Origin: a virus
Length of the DNA: 30,130 nt
IMG/VR virus record: IMGVR_UViG_3300031222_000012
Location: 1 to 30,130 of that record
Strand: one strand, 5' to 3'
The notes below the pieces were generated by a model that was not told the origin of the DNA, searched no databases, and saw only the letters and a program-made list of their open reading frames with translations. The translations under genes were made by a program, and so were the position numbers. Positions 17,271 to 26,779 of this stretch are shown piece by piece. Position 1 is the first letter of the stretch. Each line of letters opens with the position of its first letter.

Positions 17271-17704
17271 AGTATGATACTCGCACTGATCGTCAAGTAG
17301 TTTTGTCTAATATGGTTGAAATCAATTTCGTTGATTCTCCTGAAGATGGGTTTCGTAAAGTAAAAGAAACTCTCGAGCGTATGGGTATACCAAAGCGTGA
17401 CACTAAGTCATTGATTCAGACAGCTCACATCTTGCACAAGCAAAGACGATACTACATTTGCCACTTTAAGGAGCTCTTTGCATTAGACGGTAAGGCTGCT
17501 GAACTTTCGGAAGAAGACGTCGGTCGTCGTAATCTTATTGTAAAATATCTCACTGATTGGAATCTCATCAAGCCAATCACTGATAATGCTGAGCGTCCTA
17601 TTTGTTCTCCACGTCGCTTGAAGGTAGTCAAGTATAAAGAACGTGAGTCATGGGTTTTTGAATCCAAGTACTCAATTGGTAATGTTAAGAATAAAGCAGC
17701 TTAA
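17267..17704 (+). CDS. regA: RegA translational repressor
   Basis: 145 residues. Matches T4 RegA (122): VKETLERMGIPKRDTKSLIQ, AHILHKQRRYYICHFKELF, LDGKAAELSEEDVGRRN and the C-terminal KYSIGN. RegA binds start regions of early mRNAs, including its own and the clamp/loader genes, and blocks initiation. Start chosen for the ATGA overlap; an internal ATG at 17312 would align with the T4 start and give 130 residues. Unlike in T4, gene 43 does not follow. Confidence 0.92.
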   Translation: MKYDTRTDRQVVLSNMVEINFVDSPEDGFRKVKETLERMGIPKRDTKSLIQTAHILHKQRRYYICHFKELFALDGKAAELSEEDVGRRNLIVKYLTDWNLIKPITDNAERPICSPRRLKVVKYKERESWVFESKYSIGNVKNKAA

Positions 17705-17710
17705 TTATAT

Positions 17711-17730
17711 GGGTTGATTAAATTCAACCC
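17711..17730 (+). terminator. Hairpin after regA, terminator-like
   Basis: GGGTTGA, loop TTAAAT, TCAACCC: a 7-bp perfect stem seven bases after the regA stop. Only TATTT follows, so termination may be partial. Confidence 0.5.
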
Positions 17731-17894
17731 TATTTAAGGGCCTTTATATTGAAGTTAAGGGGTATAAAACAGACAGGGATGAGGCGAAATGGTTTTACTT
17801 TAGTGGGGATTTATATATAATAGATTCATCGTTAATTTATAAACTAGATGAAATTGATATAAATGATTTAATGTATAACGGTCCTTTAGTTTAA
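17718..17894 (+). pseudogene. C-terminal remnant of a nuclease-like gene
   Basis: An open frame without any start codon, running from just after a TGA to TAA 17892-17894. It reads KGLYIEVKGYKTDRDEAKWF and continues with FSGDLYIIDSS and a short tail. The IEVKGY...AKW pattern resembles the E-x-K core of PD-(D/E)XK-type phage and homing endonucleases, whose C-terminal strand-helix looks like this. It is therefore a decayed end piece of such a gene, lying where many relatives keep gene 43 or a homing endonuclease. It overlaps the following tRNA by 15 bases. Family call tentative. Confidence 0.45.
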
Positions 17895-21528: not shown

Positions 21529-21594
21529 GCCAATTGGTAGAGCGTCCGACTCATAATCGGCAGGTTGTCGGATCATACCCGCCCAGGCCCACCA
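21529..21594 (+). tRNA. Degenerate tRNA-like sequence, CAT anticodon
   Basis: GGGCC...GGCCC acceptor part, TTGGTAGAGC D-loop end, anticodon arm CCGA CTCATAA TCGG and CCA are present. About 8 bases are missing where positions 8-13 should be, and the T loop reads ATCATAC instead of TTCRANY. Probably a decaying tRNA; it may be inactive. Confidence 0.5.
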
Positions 21595-21598
21595 AATA

Positions 21599-21675
21599 CG
21601 GGATATAGCACAGCTTGGTAGTGCGTTCGCTTTGGGAGCGAAAGGTCGTAGGTTCGAATCCTACTATCCCGACCA
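21599..21675 (+). tRNA. tRNA-Pro (TGG)
   Basis: Acceptor CGGGATA/TATCCCG with the Pro-typical C1-G72, D arm GCAC/GTGC, anticodon arm TTCGC TTTGGGA GCGAA (TGG at 21633-21635), T arm GTAGG TTCGAAT CCTAC, encoded CCA. Confidence 0.93.
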
Positions 21676-21683
21676 ATTTTAAA

Positions 21684-21782
21684 GAGAGTTATTACTGAGG
21701 CGTTGGCAGAAGTCGCTGCTCATATACGGAAAGCGCGCCGTATTACTGTTAAGGGGAACAGAGCGTCCCAGTAATAGCTTTC
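21684..21782 (+). ncRNA. Unassigned structured RNA in tRNA cluster (A)
   Basis: A gap between two tRNAs enclosed by a long helix: TATTACTG (21690-21697) pairs with CAGTAATA (21769-21776), extended outward by six more pairs including G-U. Inside are ATACGG/CCGTAT (21724-21729/21738-21743, loop with GCGCG) and a GGGA/TCCC hairpin. No CCA, T arm or start codon. T4 carries stable RNAs of unknown role in its tRNA cluster; this could be comparable. Confidence 0.5.
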
Positions 21783-21791
21783 AGATTAAAT

Positions 21792-21869
21792 GCTCGGGTA
21801 ATCCAATTAGGCAGAGATAAGGGATTTAAACTCCCTCCAGTGTGGGTTCGAGTCCCACTCCGAGTACCA
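21792..21869 (+). tRNA. tRNA with TAA anticodon (Leu by code)
   Basis: Acceptor GCTCGGG/TCCGAGT, anticodon arm AGGGA TTTAAAC TCCCT (TAA at 21827-21829), T arm GTGGG TTCGAGT CCCAC, A + CCA. The variable loop is short (CCAGT), whereas tRNA-Leu normally has a long variable arm, so charging identity is uncertain. Confidence 0.8.
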
Positions 21870-21875
21870 TTTTAT

Positions 21876-21961
21876 ACCCCTTGTTCCCGACAGGAGTCTT
21901 CTAAACTCCTACTTAAAACGTTGGGCGGAAGTGGCTGGTTCGACTCCAGCAAGGGGTGCCA
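21876..21961 (+). tRNA. Atypical tRNA, TCT anticodon (Arg by code), no D arm
   Basis: Acceptor ACCCCTT/AAGGGGT, a perfect anticodon hairpin AGGAGT CTTCTAA ACTCCT (TCT), T arm GCTGG TTCGACT CCAGC, G + CCA. Only 9 bases separate the acceptor from the anticodon hairpin, so a D arm is missing, while the variable region is 23 bases with ACTT/AAGT pairing. Either a damaged gene or an unusual tRNA. Confidence 0.6.
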
Positions 21962-22036
21962 ATTAAGTGTATATTGTCAGACTGTATGACATTTGTTTAA
22001 TAAAAAGAATTATATATCAAACAGAGAGCATTTAAT

Positions 22037-22126
22037 ATGAAAAGTTTTCAAAGGAAATTAACAAGCATATCAAAAAAAATAACAGGCAAAAGAAATATAT
22101 ATGATTTTGTTAAGAGTATTGGATAA
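22037..22126 (+). CDS. 29-residue basic peptide in tRNA cluster
   Basis: MKSFQRKLTSISKKITGKRN and nine further residues, strongly basic and amphipathic. Only a weak AGAGAG site precedes ATG. May be a leader peptide or chance; low certainty. Confidence 0.3.
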   Translation: MKSFQRKLTSISKKITGKRNIYDFVKSIG

Positions 22127-22142
22127 ATAGAACTGTAAAAAC

Positions 22143-22218
22143 ACTAGAGTAGCTCAATTGGCAGAGCAGAGGGTCGATAACCCTTTGGTTGTAGGTTCGA
22201 GTCCTTCCTCTAGTACCA
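22143..22218 (+). tRNA. tRNA-Ile (GAT), with C33
   Basis: Acceptor ACTAGAG/CTCTAGT, D stem GCTC/GAGC, anticodon arm GAGGG TCGATAA CCCTT (GAT), T arm GTAGG TTCGAGT CCTTC with one mismatch, A + CCA. Position 33, normally T, is C. A second, regular tRNA-Ile(GAT) lies at 25240. Confidence 0.8.
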
Positions 22219-22221
22219 GTT

Positions 22222-22305
22222 TTGTGTAGCAAACTCGGTAAAGCACAGTTAAACTCCAACAGTGCTAACCACGAGGTATTAGGGGATAGTGGTTCACCCT
22301 TTTTT
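22222..22305 (+). ncRNA. Unassigned structured RNA with own terminator (B)
   Basis: Two hairpins: AGCAC-A-GTT / AAC-A-GTGCT (22242-22250/22258-22266, loop AAACTCC) and AACCAC/GTGGTT (22267-22272/22289-22294), followed by CACCC and six T. No tRNA T arm. Looks like a short stable RNA or tRNA-derived relic. Confidence 0.45.
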
Positions 22306-22311
22306 ATTCAA

Positions 22312-22398
22312 GCGAGAGTGGCGTAATTGGTAGGCGCGCTGGATTTAGATTCCAGTGGGGTAAAACCCGTGAGAGTTCGAGTCTCTCTTCTCGCACCA
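22312..22398 (+). tRNA. tRNA-Leu (TAG)
   Basis: Acceptor GCGAGAG/TTCTCGC, anticodon arm CTGGA TTTAGAT TCCAG (TAG), long variable arm TGGGGTAAAACCCGT as expected for Leu, T loop TTCGAGT, A + CCA. It can read CUN codons, which matters for the Leu-UAG-Leu sites discussed in the findings. Confidence 0.95.
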
Positions 22399-22465
22399 TA
22401 TATAATGGTATGATGTCTAGCAAGATCAGTGTTGGACGTGGGTTCGATTCCCACCGCCTCCACCA

Positions 22466-22558
22466 TATATACTCTGTTGTAAAAACAGTAGATGACGAGA
22501 ATCGCTACTCATTATTTGAGTACTTGGAGAGAGTGATTTCCCGCAGAGTATATTTGAT
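22466..22558 (+). other. Intervening segment of the permuted tmRNA precursor
   Basis: 93 bases between the CCA of the acceptor piece and the 5' end of the coding piece. A 10-bp perfect stem (22467-22476 with 22544-22553) closes it. Expected to be cut out, leaving two RNAs held by the acceptor and P2 helices. Confidence 0.8.
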
Positions 22559-22642
22559 GGGGGCGCATAGGCTTCGACAATGCTAGAGAAGGCAGGCTGA
22601 CCATTGGTGCAGAAAACACCTAAACACATCAATAAAGTAAAT

Positions 22643-22687
22643 GCTGCTAATGATAGCACTTTTGAAGAAGTTCGAGCTGCGGCTTAA
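22643..22687 (+). other. tmRNA tag reading frame
   Basis: GCT GCT AAT GAT ... GCG GCT TAA: AANDSTFEEVRAAA, stop 22685-22687. The AND start and a C-terminal run of Ala are proteolysis-tag features; the exact resume codon (first or second GCT) is uncertain. Confidence 0.85.
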
Positions 22688-22782
22688 TTTCTTCTGAGAA
22701 CTAATCCCACTTGGAAACAGAACGGGATAGTCTCTGGGAATTCGTTCCCAGAGCAACAATTTAAAATCAGTGAGGACATAAA

Positions 22783-22899
22783 ATGAAGAAATTAATTCTT
22801 GCGTCTGTGATTGCTCTGACACCTGTTGTTACTCATGCAGGACTTTGCCTGCACATGCGGACATCGTATAGGGGCTATTACCTCAGCCTTCCAAGCTGA
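22783..22899 (+). CDS. Short signal-peptide ORF running into tRNA-Gly
   Basis: 38 codons: MKKLILASVIALTPVVTHAG is a textbook Sec signal peptide (two Lys, hydrophobic core, THA cut site), with TGAGGA 7 bases before ATG. The remaining 18 codons overlap tRNA-Gly and do not look like protein, so a longer secreted-protein gene was probably truncated here. A TGCAGG/CCTGCA hairpin (22836-22853) sits at the junction. Confidence 0.45.
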   Translation: MKKLILASVIALTPVVTHAGLCLHMRTSYRGYYLSLPS

Positions 22900-22931
22900 T
22901 GACGCGGGTTCGATTCCCGCTGTCCGCTCCA
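22857..22931 (+). tRNA. tRNA-Gly (TCC)
   Basis: Acceptor GCGGACA/TGTCCGC, anticodon arm TCAGC CTTCCAA GCTGA (TCC at 22890-22892), T arm GCGGG TTCGATT CCCGC, T discriminator + CCA. Confidence 0.93.
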
Positions 22932-22937
22932 AATTAT

Positions 22938-23015
22938 CGCGGGGTAGAGAAGTCTGGCCATCTCATTAGGCTCATAACCTGAAGATCGGGGGTTCAAATC
23001 CCTCTCCCGCTACCA
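22938..23015 (+). tRNA. tRNA-Met (CAT), initiator-like
   Basis: CGCGGGG/TCCCGCT with an unpaired first position (C1-T72), D stem GAGA/TCTC, anticodon arm TTAGG CTCATAA CCTGA (CAT at 22973-22975), TTCAAAT T loop, A + CCA. Closely resembles bacterial initiator tRNA, although the three G-C pairs of the anticodon stem are only partly kept. Confidence 0.9.
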
Positions 23016-23031
23016 ACACAAGGGTCTCGAC

Positions 23032-23343
23032 GTGACAGAATCACCTCTTTATAAGGCGCATTGCGAAATTTTCAAAAGATACATTGCCATCCTGAAAGAG
23101 GCAGACCCTGGAGATAGAGGCGACAAAACGTCGCCAGGACATCTAATAAGTCTCTGTGAGCAAGCCATAAAAAGACCGGACGCTCCGGATGACAAAGTTT
23201 CAAGATGGCTTGGGTTTGTCCAAGGCGTAATGGCAGTAAAGGGTTTGATTTCAGTTGATGAAGAAAGAGACCTTACTCGGCCACTGTTTCATAGGGCCTA
23301 TGAAGAAATAGGCATTGAAAACCCACCATCAATTACAGCTTAA
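23032..23343 (+). CDS. Conserved phage protein of unknown function
   Basis: 103 residues, GTG start. HLISLCEQAI, then SRWLGFVQGVM and ERDLTRPLFHRAYEE recall a common small phage protein family without assigned role. Base composition is clearly richer in G+C than the core genes, and it is squeezed between tRNA-Met and a tRNA 5' fragment, so it is a cargo insertion. An alternative start could lie upstream, but the tRNA end blocks it. Confidence 0.75.
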   Translation: MTESPLYKAHCEIFKRYIAILKEADPGDRGDKTSPGHLISLCEQAIKRPDAPDDKVSRWLGFVQGVMAVKGLISVDEERDLTRPLFHRAYEEIGIENPPSITA

Positions 23344-23345
23344 AT

Positions 23346-23385
23346 GGCCCCATAGCTCAGTTGGATAGAGCGTCCGCCCCGCCAC
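23346..23385 (+). pseudogene. 5' half of a tRNA gene
   Basis: GGCCCCA acceptor strand, TA, D arm GCTC AGTTGGATA GAGC, G, then TCCGCCCCGCCAC, where sequence leaves the tRNA pattern in the anticodon arm. No 3' half follows; the next gene's ribosome site begins at once. Marks a deletion or insertion breakpoint. Confidence 0.75.
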
Positions 23386-23401
23386 TTTAAAAGGAATAAA
23401 C

Positions 23402-23767
23402 ATGTATAAAATGTACGCCGTGATGTCCATGGAAGCCGTTAAGAAAATGAACGGCATTCGAGGAAAGATGATTACTCAAGGCGGTCATGCTTATGTGCAC
23501 GCCGGATGGGATGCCGATAAAAGGTTTCCAGAAGCCATGCAGGCCTACAAAGACAGCGACCATGCAAGAAAGATCACGGTACGTGTTGATACAGATGCCG
23601 AGCTTTTTGAACTTCTGGAAGCGTACAAAAAAGTATGCGGAGTCAGCCTGGTCAAAGATTCTGGCTTTACAGTTTTTAGTGAGCCAACCATAACTTGCCT
23701 GGGGATTGGTCCCATTCATGAAAGTGATATTGGTGAAGATCTCAAAGCTCTAAAGCTTTTTAGTTAA
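23402..23767 (+). CDS. Peptidyl-tRNA hydrolase, PTH2 family
   Basis: 121 residues. Family pattern: GKMITQGGHAYVHA (about 21-34), KITVRVDTDAELFELLEAYK (about 57-76), LVKDSGFTVFSEPTITCLGI (about 83-102) and the closing GP...IGEDLKALKLF. PTH2 is typical of archaea, eukaryotes and scattered bacteria and phages, and is unrelated to bacterial Pth. It frees tRNA from peptides dropped off stalled ribosomes. Its place between a tRNA fragment and tRNA-Thr, 650 bases from a tmRNA, supports a tRNA-recycling role. Higher G+C than the core genes: acquired. Confidence 0.85.
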   Translation: MYKMYAVMSMEAVKKMNGIRGKMITQGGHAYVHAGWDADKRFPEAMQAYKDSDHARKITVRVDTDAELFELLEAYKKVCGVSLVKDSGFTVFSEPTITCLGIGPIHESDIGEDLKALKLFS

Positions 23768-23770
23768 AGA

Positions 23771-23846
23771 GTCCCGTAGCTCAGCTGGCTAGAGCAGCTC
23801 ACTTGTAATGAGAAGGTCGTAGGTTCGAGTCCTACTCTGGGCACCA
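23771..23846 (+). tRNA. tRNA-Thr (TGT)
   Basis: D stem GCTC/GAGC, anticodon arm CTCA CTTGTAA TGAG (TGT), T arm GTAGG TTCGAGT CCTAC, A + CCA. The acceptor GTCCCGT/TCTGGGC has two mismatches, so activity may be reduced. Confidence 0.8.
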
Positions 23847-23949
23847 ATAAATAATCATGTGCTTAACAGCACAGGATAAAAATAATCAAAACCTCTTGCA
23901 ATCTATCTCAAATGATGTATAGGTAAATAAGAGAAATCGGAGAAAAATA

Positions 23950-24297
23950 ATGAGAACATTTAAAGAACATCTTAACGAAGCTAAGAAGCTAAAAAAAGGC
24001 CGCAATCCTTTTAAAAAGAACGAGTTATTTTCTTTTTATAAAAATGCAGGATATACTGATAATCTTGCAAAAAATACGATTTTTATTGATTATGCTGGAT
24101 ATGACCAACAAAAAAATGAACATGTATATATCTTTGTTGTTTATAATGATAACGAAGAAACATATATGATTGCTAGATTATATGTGCTGCTTGGTTCAGA
24201 AGGAAAGATTACTTTGGAACCAGATGGCATGCCACTTGCTGATGATTATGAAAATAGTTCTGATGCAATTGCAGATGTTTCAAAATATAGAAAATAA
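23950..24297 (+). CDS. Protein with capsid-targeting-like leader, unknown
   Basis: 115 residues. Starts MRTFKEHLNEAKKLKKG, matching the leader of ORFs 1818 and 6183; LNE/A is a good gp21 cut site after residue 10. A basic stretch (KKLKKGRNPFKKN) follows the cut, as expected for a DNA-associated head protein. The body (HVYIFVVYNDNEETYMIARL) is a beta-rich domain I do not recognise. A GGTAAATAAG sequence 22 bases upstream is a poor late-promoter match. Confidence 0.7.
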   Translation: MRTFKEHLNEAKKLKKGRNPFKKNELFSFYKNAGYTDNLAKNTIFIDYAGYDQQKNEHVYIFVVYNDNEETYMIARLYVLLGSEGKITLEPDGMPLADDYENSSDAIADVSKYRK

Positions 24298-24365
24298 AAG
24301 TTCTTAATTCTCTAGTAAGATAGATAAATAGATTTTATAAAGAAATTCATTTAGGATATAAAGAA

Positions 24366-24491
24366 ATGTTTACGCACAACTCAATCGAAAAATTTGCAGT
24401 AGAGCCTGGGATGCATAATAGCAACCCTTGGTTGAGTTGTGCATATCCAAAGAAAGCAGATGATCGCTTTTCGGAGGTTAAAGGCTTTTAA
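24366..24491 (+). CDS. 41-residue ORF overlapping an inverted repeat
   Basis: MFTHNSIEKFAVEPGMHNSN and 21 more residues, TAA at 24491. AGGA lies 9 bases upstream. The 11-bp inverted repeat falls inside it, so this may be a coding gene, a leader peptide, or only a structured RNA. Followed by a clear terminator. Confidence 0.4.
   Translation: MFTHNSIEKFAVEPGMHNSNPWLSCAYPKKADDRFSEVKGF
24374..24442 (+). repeat. 11-bp perfect inverted repeat with 47-base loop
   Basis: GCACAACTCAA (24374-24384) and TTGAGTTGTGC (24432-24442). The loop itself contains TGGGATGCATAATAGCAACCC, which may pair through GGG/CCC. Possible structured RNA between the leader-protein gene and the terminator at 24522. Confidence 0.7.
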
Positions 24492-24521
24492 CTAGATGAA
24501 CGTGTAATTTAATATCTACTT

Positions 24522-24549
24522 AAAAGCCTGTTACTAAACAGGCTTTTTT
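24522..24549 (+). terminator. Rho-independent terminator
   Basis: AAGCCTGTT, loop ACTA, AACAGGCTT, then TTTT: a 9-bp stem with U tract. Closes the small unit from 23950. A TTGGTATTAT box follows at once and could start the next tRNA transcript. Confidence 0.88.
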
Positions 24550-24572
24550 GGTATTATAGTTTAATAATTTAA

Positions 24573-24658
24573 GGACGTCCACTAACCACGTGGCGAGGAT
24601 ATCTGGCTGTAACCCAGAGGCGAAAGCTGTGTAGGTTCGACTCCTACGGCGTCCACCA
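24573..24658 (+). tRNA. tRNA-Tyr (GTA)
   Basis: Acceptor GGACGTC/GGCGTCC, anticodon arm TCTGG CTGTAAC CCAGA (GTA at 24609-24611), long variable arm GGCGAAAGCTGT as usual for bacterial Tyr, T arm GTAGG TTCGACT CCTAC, A + CCA. Confidence 0.93.
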
Positions 24659-24852
24659 AATTGTTGATTTTACGGGCAGCTGTCTGTAAAAGGACAGGGT
24701 GACACCTGTTCAGTGTACTTAAGGTTTCGCTCAGGAAAATGGCACAAACTCTTCCGGCAAAACCACAAGACAATAGCGATGTAGCATGGTGAGAGTCCAA
24801 ACGGCGTGTGTTACTGGCATCGTGGCGGAATCTTAATGCACAATTTTTAAAG
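24659..24852 (+). other. 194-base tRNA-cluster gap, possibly a structured RNA
   Basis: No plausible gene. Visible pairings: TTTTAC/GTAAAA (around 24668-24691), ACAGG/CCTGT, GCGATG/CATCGT, and a final TTTTT at 24844-24848. Too long for a tRNA; no T arm or CCA. It could be a further unassigned RNA or a decayed tRNA pair. Nothing recognised. Confidence 0.3.
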
Positions 24853-24928
24853 GCCCTAGGGACCATCTGGGAATGGTATCTGCCTGTCTAGCAGAATGTT
24901 GCGAGTTCGAATCTCGTTTAGGGCGCCA
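24853..24928 (+). tRNA. tRNA-Asp (GTC)
   Basis: Acceptor GCCCTAG/TTAGGGC, D stem ACCA/TGGT, anticodon arm TCTGC CTGTCTA GCAGA (GTC), T arm GCGAG TTCGAAT CTCGT, G discriminator typical of Asp, CCA. Confidence 0.93.
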
Positions 24929-24933
24929 ATAAT

Positions 24934-25009
24934 CAGGGCGTAGCGCAGATGGTAGCGCACTAGCTTTGGAAGCTTGTGGTCGTAGGTTCGAGTCCTACCG
25001 TCCTGACCA
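24934..25009 (+). tRNA. tRNA-Pro (TGG), second copy
   Basis: Acceptor CAGGGCG/CGTCCTG with C1-G72, D stem GCGC/GCGC, anticodon arm CTAGC TTTGGAA GCTTG (TGG) with one mismatch, T arm GTAGG TTCGAGT CCTAC, A + CCA. Clearly diverged from the 21599 copy. Confidence 0.9.
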
Positions 25010-25033
25010 ATTTAATAAAGAAAATTATATTAT

Positions 25034-25120
25034 AGAGAGTAATTTTAGCTGGTGCTAAAGATCGCCTGCTAAGCGATTCGTCTGGAAACGGGTGTGGTTC
25101 AATTCCACCGATCTCTGCCA
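25034..25120 (+). tRNA. tRNA-Ser (GCT)
   Basis: Anticodon arm ATCGC CTGCTAA GCGAT (GCT at 25068-25070), D stem TTTAGC/GCTAAA, long Ser-type variable arm TCGTCTGGAAACGGG, T loop TTCAATT, G discriminator + CCA. The acceptor AGAGAGT/GATCTCT pairs at five positions. Confidence 0.9.
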
Positions 25121-25121
25121 G

Positions 25122-25185
25122 ATTGTAACAATATACTTTACATTTTGCTAAATTTTATGTGAAATGTAAAGTATATTGTTACAAT
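25122..25185. repeat. 24-bp perfect inverted repeat
   Basis: Left arm 25122-25145 begins ATTGTAACAATATACTT; right arm 25162-25185 is its exact reverse complement; 16-base loop. It starts two bases after the tRNA-Ser CCA, with TTTTAA after the right arm. Very A+T-rich. As RNA it would be a strong hairpin: terminator-like in both directions, or a processing signal in the tRNA precursor. Confidence 0.9.
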
Positions 25186-25239
25186 TTTAATGCCTGACCT
25201 CTGAGAGGAGACGAGATTCCAAACTTTGTCAGCCATTCT

Positions 25240-25314
25240 GGTAGGGTAGTACAACGGTCAGTACAGTCGGCTGATAACCGACAGATGAAAGTTCAATTCT
25301 TTCCCCTACTACCA
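25240..25314 (+). tRNA. tRNA-Ile (GAT)
   Basis: Acceptor GGTAGGG/CCCTACT, D stem GTAC/GTAC, anticodon arm GTCGG CTGATAA CCGAC (GAT at 25273-25275), T arm GAAAG TTCAATT CTTTC, A + CCA. Confidence 0.93.
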
Positions 25315-25358
25315 TTTTACGTGTTCATTAATAATGGACAGAGCAGTTTTGTGAACAA

Positions 25359-25434
25359 GGGTGCGTAGCTCAATTGGCAGAGCAGCTGGCTTTTAACCAG
25401 CAGGTTGAAGGTTCGAGTCCTTCCGCACCCACCA
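25359..25434 (+). tRNA. tRNA-Lys (TTT)
   Basis: Acceptor GGGTGCG/CGCACCC, D stem GCTC/GAGC, anticodon arm GCTGG CTTTTAA CCAGC (TTT), T arm GAAGG TTCGAGT CCTTC, A + CCA. A regular cloverleaf. Last tRNA of the cluster. Confidence 0.95.
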
Positions 25435-25847: not shown

Positions 25848-26501
25848 TAGCTACATTTTGGACATAAGAACATTATGAAGTTCTGTCCTAAGACACGCCG
25901 TCACTTAGTTGATGCTGACCGACTGGACAAGGCTTTAGCCGTTGATTCTTTGACTGTTGAAGAGATTCATGCTGCTTATTCAGAGTACCAGAACTTGGAC
26001 GAAAAGCAGCTAAAGAAGGCTAATCAGGGCGAGTGGGAATTCCTTACTAACCAGATGAACGAGAATATGGTTAAGGCATGGAATGCCACTGTTAACCCAG
26101 AGGACCTTGTTTATATCCTAGGCGATATTGCGTTTATGCCAGGTGACAAGGCTGCAAAGTTCCTTCATAGAATGAACAGCCGCAAGATACTTGTCGAAGG
26201 CAACCACGACGTAAAGCAGCTCAAGGACAAGAATTTTCGTGAGTGCTTTGAAGAAGTTCACAAGTACCTTGAGATACAGTGGGATAAGCGCAAGCTAGTG
26301 ATGTTTCACTATCCTATAATGGAGTGGAACCAGATGTACCGCGGCGCACTTCACTTTCACGGACACTTACACGGTTCACCAAGTGGGCTAGAAGAGTACC
26401 GTGCACGTGACATGGGATACGATGCTACTGGACAGATCGTAATGCTCATGGAAGACGCGATCGAAGACGCTCGCAAGGGAGAGATCAAAGGCCATCACTG
26501 A
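25821..26501 (+). CDS. Calcineurin-like metallophosphoesterase split by an in-frame TAG
   Basis: From ATG 25821 (AAGGAGG 8 bases upstream) the frame reads MRTFVTSDL, TAG (25848-25850), then LHFGHKNIMKFCPKTRRHLV onward to TGA 26501. Usual family members begin with ...TSDLHFGH, where D-x-H binds metal; here six extra bases (TAG plus one Leu codon) sit between D and H. The remaining motifs are intact: GDIAF near residue 88, GNHD near 113, FHYP, GHLHG near 165. Starting at ATG 25875 gives 208 residues lacking the first metal motif. The frame is also open upstream to ATG 25770. Acquired, more G+C-rich cassette; substrate unknown. Confidence 0.8.
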
Positions 26502-26779
26502 TGACAGATGAGAAAACTGCAAAGGACGTGATAGGACGTCCTATCAAGCAAGGTGACTACGTCTTTTACTATCAGAATATCGATATTATTAAGATAGACG
26601 TTGAAGGACATGAATTAGAAGTTCTACAAGGAATGTCTAAAATGTTAAAAAGAGATAAGCCTAAAATTATTATTGAACTTTTATCAGAAAAAGATATTCT
26701 TAAATCTGATAAATTCTTAAAAGAATTAGGTTACAAATTTAAAATGAGATGCGACGATAGAAATTACATATATGAATAA
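26501..26779 (+). CDS. Chimeric ORF: phage N-terminus fused to an FkbM methyltransferase tail
   Basis: 92 residues. The first ~27 (MTDEKTAKDVIGRPIKQGDY then VFYYQN) look like the start of a small phage protein and share the higher G+C of the cassette. From residue 28 (IDIIKIDVEGHELEVLQGMS onward) it is the C-terminal segment of an FkbM-type S-adenosylmethionine methyltransferase, with low G+C. The methyltransferase's SAM-binding part is missing, so no activity is expected. It marks a recombination junction near 26577. Coupled to the phosphoesterase gene by an ATGA overlap. Confidence 0.7.
   Translation: MTDEKTAKDVIGRPIKQGDYVFYYQNIDIIKIDVEGHELEVLQGMSKMLKRDKPKIIIELLSEKDILKSDKFLKELGYKFKMRCDDRNYIYE

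Follow-up and report, generated by a model that had tools for sequence, protein, structure and literature searches.

A divergent circularly permuted tmRNA gene within the tRNA array of a T4-type phage

The tmRNA locus and its genomic setting

The window studied here is a 30,130-base virus record (IMG/VR IMGVR_UViG_3300031222_000012), taken over its whole length, which carries T4-type head and replication genes. We identified a head protease, scaffold, major head protein and late sigma factor of T4 type, alongside the replication genes for SbcCD-like subunits, a sliding clamp and clamp loaders; the major head protein shares 70% identity with its counterpart in Pseudomonas phage pf16. An array of 11 tRNA genes extends from 21599 to 25434, and a permuted tmRNA gene is located inside this cluster.

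All the parts of the tmRNA lie on the plus strand, as do the tRNA-Leu(UAG) with encoded CCA situated directly 5' of it (22312–22398) and a hydrolase gene further downstream. The acceptor piece (22403–22465) contains the 5' strands of the P2 helices, a canonical T arm, the 3' strand of the acceptor stem and the CCA, and is followed by a putatively removable middle segment (22466–22558). The coding piece (22559–22754) contains the 5' acceptor strand GGGGGCG, the TTCGAC motif, the 3' strands of the P2 helices, the tag reading frame and downstream stems, and finishes in a 3' terminal hairpin (about 22732–22754). We infer the 3' end of the tmRNA from the beta_tmRNA model, whose match stops at 22755. 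The start given by ARAGORN (22373) overlaps the tRNA-Leu (22312–22398), which rules it out as the true 5' end. The outer P2 strand (22403) begins 0–5 bases past the CCA end of the tRNA-Leu (22398), and the cut that matures the 3' end of this tRNA would define, exactly or almost so, where the tmRNA precursor begins.

A Pth2-type peptidyl-tRNA hydrolase (23402–23767; Pfam PF01981, 6e-17; matching solved Pth2 structures) sits 0.6 kb downstream of the coding piece. Peptidyl-tRNA hydrolase is another enzyme that clears failed translation. The protein is of the archaeal/eukaryotic type and retains the G-K-M and K-D-S-G motifs; among phage proteins, those closest to it come from 200–320 kb phages of Brevundimonas and Caulobacter. 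A general link between tmRNA and Pth2 was considered and rejected, as Pth2 scored above the cut-off in none of 16 other phage records, with DLP6 matching weakly.

Several smaller features were noted around the array. A short open frame immediately 3' of the tmRNA (22783–22899) has a signal-peptide-like start (MKKLILASVIALTPVVTHAG) and terminates within tRNA-Gly (22857–22931), and is perhaps the remnant of an inserted gene. The stretch between tRNA-Ile and tRNA-Leu (22219–22311) resembles, by eye, a degenerate tRNA ending in six T, and was called by neither ARAGORN nor Rfam. Another short frame (26501–26779) matches the FkbM methyltransferase domain (PF05050, 2.6e-13) and seems to cover just its C-terminal part. 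Four assemblies from other samples that are more than 99% identical (L356, L357, L358 and L359) have indels relative to the window in the tRNA region at 21547–22219, and also differ from it near 17679–17738. One of these, L358, is from the same phage population and stops at window position 22219, so that the tmRNA gene is seen in one assembly only.

Identity and secondary structure of the permuted tmRNA

The Rfam family tmRNA_permuted (RF04321) matches the window at 22404–22687 with 113.2 bits (E 1.2e-21), well above its gathering score of 47, and the model is covered end to end (positions 1–213 of 213) in a single collinear alignment. Independently, ARAGORN calls a permuted tmRNA (tmRNA*) at this locus, with the same tag, AANDSTFEEVRAAA, that the initial annotation had read from the sequence. 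The proposal made there of a phage-borne permuted tmRNA is borne out by both programs: this T4-type phage has a circularly permuted (two-piece) tmRNA gene at window positions 22404–22687. The weight of this identification comes from agreement with the family model, and not from the helices alone.

The acceptor piece lies upstream of the coding piece, and the acceptor stem forms between the two, with 22559–22565 (GGGGGCG) pairing with 22455–22461 (CGCCTCC) at seven of seven positions, including the G3-U70 pair, just as initially described. The discriminator A (22462) and the CCA (22463–22465) are encoded in the DNA. G3-U70 is near-universal in the permuted genes compared (128 of 129). P2 is formed by 22416–22422 (TCTAGCA) and 22581–22587 (TGCTAGA), and a second, outer helix absent from the initial annotation pairs 22403–22409 (TAATGGT) with 22600–22606 (ACCATTG), with one G-U. 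The seven Watson-Crick pairs of P2 had been taken as confirming the pairing of the two pieces; the helix is exactly where it was placed, but does not by itself constitute significant confirmation, since a 7-bp Watson-Crick run is found in 3% of shuffled sequences and is only mildly unusual. The nested pair of helices was likewise not unusual by shuffling, being equally long in 10% of shuffles.

The stem previously noted as closing the middle segment (22467–22476 with 22544–22553) consists of ten Watson-Crick pairs, and when the precursor is folded to minimum energy (z -4.0) it forms together with the acceptor stem. Most of 113 permuted genes compared have a stem in this position, the mean run over the set being 8.6 pairs versus 5.2 in shuffles, and the equivalents in DLP6 and Yut2 are of different sequence. 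This recurrence at one site with different sequence is consistent with the stem helping to present the precursor to enzymes of tRNA processing. In one viral contig (L013, 1560–1720) we observed a second T-arm-like sequence (GGGTTCGATTCCCACCGTATGCCA) in the middle segment of the tmRNA, as though a tRNA fragment had been inserted there.

The tag reading frame

The tag frame (22643–22687) comprises 14 codons and is intact and closed by a TAA stop codon. Translation probably resumes at the first GCT (22643), which fits the consensus UAAAU-GCA, with the second GCT (22646) a possible alternative. The tag begins AAND, as is typical of tmRNA tags, and ends AAA, where the usual ends are LAA (the commonest), VAA, IAA or MAA. 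The AAA end is uncommon yet occurs elsewhere, in one of 61 other viral and two of 55 bacterial permuted calls, a few of the viral calls looking like misread tags. It may weaken proteolysis of the tagged protein.

Distribution of permuted tmRNAs in phages

The initial annotation knew of no well-studied T4-type example, a view that is overturned by our searches and by published work. Of eight T4-type relatives searched with RF04321, five have a permuted tmRNA (DLP6, Yut2, Melnitz, Mosig and HTVC008M), whereas no match was found in pf16, XG4 or C48C1. The Menderavirus group also carries one: the Yut2 gene was found at 94–100% over the whole query in 16 Stenotrophomonas phage records, Yut2 included. 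A pattern scan of IMG/VR identified at least about 60 contigs with a permuted tmRNA, and three scan contigs of 159–169 kb among the matches listed have T4-type major head proteins. In a previous survey, 53 two-piece genes were counted among 133 unique phage tmRNA structures (PMC9004378), and the tmRNA of phage Marzo, of the betaproteobacterial class, was reported in 2022 (PMC8928761). Permuted tmRNA genes are thus fairly common in phages, and the window copy is a new, divergent example rather than a surprising one.

Exact searches with the acceptor piece plus closing stem, with the tag motif and with the start of the coding piece matched no other viral contig. Searches with neighbouring proteins recovered near-identical contigs of the same population, none of which reaches the tmRNA, and distant relatives without a tmRNA in the 10 kb read. 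The DLP6 gene (KU682439.2, 102838–103059; 136.8 bits) is unannotated in its GenBank record, and several Menderavirus records likewise have no tmRNA annotation.

Type, phylogeny and host

The window gene has a canonical T loop (GGGTTCGATTCCC) and motif (GGCTTCGAC), and the altered T loop (GGGGGCGGTACCC type) and GGATCGAC motif of the alphaproteobacterial two-piece subtype are absent from the window. The bacterial two-piece family beta_tmRNA (RF01850) is the best of three older models and aligns from end to end, 3' hairpin included, with a score (74.3 bits, E 1.5e-22) under its cut-off of 84; "beta-type", applied to the window gene, therefore denotes no more than a resemblance. In a tree of 120 genes, two sides are separated with support of 99/94, with the "alpha" and "beta" labels of bacterial genes resting on T-loop and tag type rather than on taxonomy. 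Melnitz, Mosig and HTVC008M fall on the alpha side, with most of the sampled bacterial genes; the non-alpha side contains two beta-type bacterial genes, viral genes, DLP6, Yut2 and the window, a viral placement that is partly by design as the viral sample was picked by its canonical T arm. By its T loop, its GGCTTCGAC motif and the best older model, the window tmRNA falls on the non-alpha, beta-like side. It forms a long end branch, and none of the genes compared is more than 61% identical to it. Placement with a particular host failed, on account of this long branch and of there being no well-supported group within the non-alpha side.

The gene had also been thought to hint at the host clade. 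It is indeed of beta rather than alpha type; however, this is a weak guide to the host, given that the tmRNA of Melnitz differs in type from that of its host (PMC9004378) and that Menderavirus phages with beta-class genes infect Stenotrophomonas (PMC8928761). Thus, the host cannot be read from the window tmRNA. A scan of genome contigs, tried as a guide to the host, met among the matches listed mainly one-piece tmRNAs that share the T arm, nearly all without a downstream coding piece, and therefore gave no host. Among 369 genomes of one class reached through a gammaproteobacterium, one was clearly permuted (141 bits) and three others just passed the cut-off; 168 of 397 were over the cut-off in a phylum-wide comparison.

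Proposed function and alternative explanations

The architecture of the gene is read directly from the DNA; processing, charging, SmpB binding and tagging are proposed by analogy with bacterial two-piece tmRNA. The locus would be transcribed together with the tRNA array, and tRNA-processing enzymes would release the precursor from tRNA-Leu and excise the middle segment by cutting at the encoded CCA and before G22559. The two resulting RNAs would be held together by the acceptor stem and P2, and could be charged by the host alanyl-tRNA synthetase via G3-U70. Host SmpB would then deliver the RNA to ribosomes that have stalled on broken messages. Translation would switch to the tag frame and end at TAA, releasing the ribosome, and the tagged fragment would pass to host proteases. 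The phage would likely benefit by keeping ribosomes available while messages are destroyed during infection. We found no smpB in the 30-kb window, in eight complete phage relatives or in 42 viral contigs, many of them fragments, and reliance on host SmpB is presumed for this reason. Most likely, then, the tmRNA would be processed like its bacterial two-piece counterparts, use host SmpB and alanyl-tRNA synthetase, and free stalled ribosomes, and we judge it probable that this is a working two-piece tmRNA gene.

The gene could instead be a captured passenger, moving with the tRNA array and decaying without present function, which we regard as unlikely. The indels that distinguish the tRNA regions of near-identical phage assemblies would fit such an origin, as would the long branch of the window gene and the lack of a permuted tmRNA in pf16, the closest phage by capsid. 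However, the acceptor pairs, CCA, G-U pair, tag frame and stop are all intact, and at this level of divergence a sequence free of constraint would be expected to lack some of these features. We consider it somewhat more improbable that the RNA is a decoy, binding SmpB or alanyl-tRNA synthetase and mainly interfering with the host tmRNA, for example sparing phage proteins from tagging. Mycobacteriophage DS6A is reported to have an RNA of little beyond the tRNA-like domain, and strong inhibition of tmRNA is reported for a similar molecule, perhaps through titration of SmpB (PMC4131195); the window tag, moreover, ends AAA and not LAA. A decoy would nonetheless need no intact tag frame with a stop, no complete acceptor stem and no downstream stems, all of which are kept.

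That the resemblance arose by chance, or that assembly joined pieces with no relation to each other, is scarcely credible even with the locus covered by one assembly only, as the family is matched at E 1e-21 in one collinear alignment and the same order and tRNA-Leu neighbour occur in isolate phages. A further elaboration, in which the tmRNA and tRNA-Leu would form one transcript near Pth2 as a phage translation-rescue island, the AAA-ending tag freeing ribosomes while the tagged protein is degraded inefficiently, is unlikely.

The gene adds a divergent beta-type case to the T4-type phages that repeatedly carry such genes, in at least two lineages and without smpB in every record searched here. 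It makes testable whether a phage tmRNA serves the phage's own ribosome rescue or disturbs that of the host, and it calls for caution when the form of a phage tmRNA is used to infer the clade of the host.

Comparison with known systems

Methylophilales phage Melnitz and the pelagiphages Mosig and HTVC008M are, like the window, of T4 type with a permuted tmRNA. They differ in their altered T loop, and group with the alphaproteobacterial type. The Melnitz gene is in addition reported under a glutamine riboswitch (PMC9004378), in contrast to the window, where no such riboswitch was found.

Stenotrophomonas phage DLP6 shares with the window a T4-type capsid (52% to that of the window), a canonical T loop and a match to RF04321 (136.8 bits), and its tmRNA heads a tRNA array. 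It is distinguished by its tag (ANDDSFAPMAIAA) and acceptor stem (GGGGATG/CATCTCC).

The Menderavirus phages (Yut2, Marzo, Mendera, IME-SM1 and BUCT608) are far from the window in sequence, the window tmRNA alone giving no blastn match, and differ in their tag (VAANDDSYTVRIAA) and in a middle segment of 57 bases versus 94 in the window (counting the final A of CCA). Like the window, however, they are T4-like and have a canonical T loop and a permuted tmRNA directly after tRNA-Leu(UAG), with the closing stem followed by TTGAT and then by the coding piece, and they match the window DNA at 70.6% across the tRNA-Leu plus acceptor piece.
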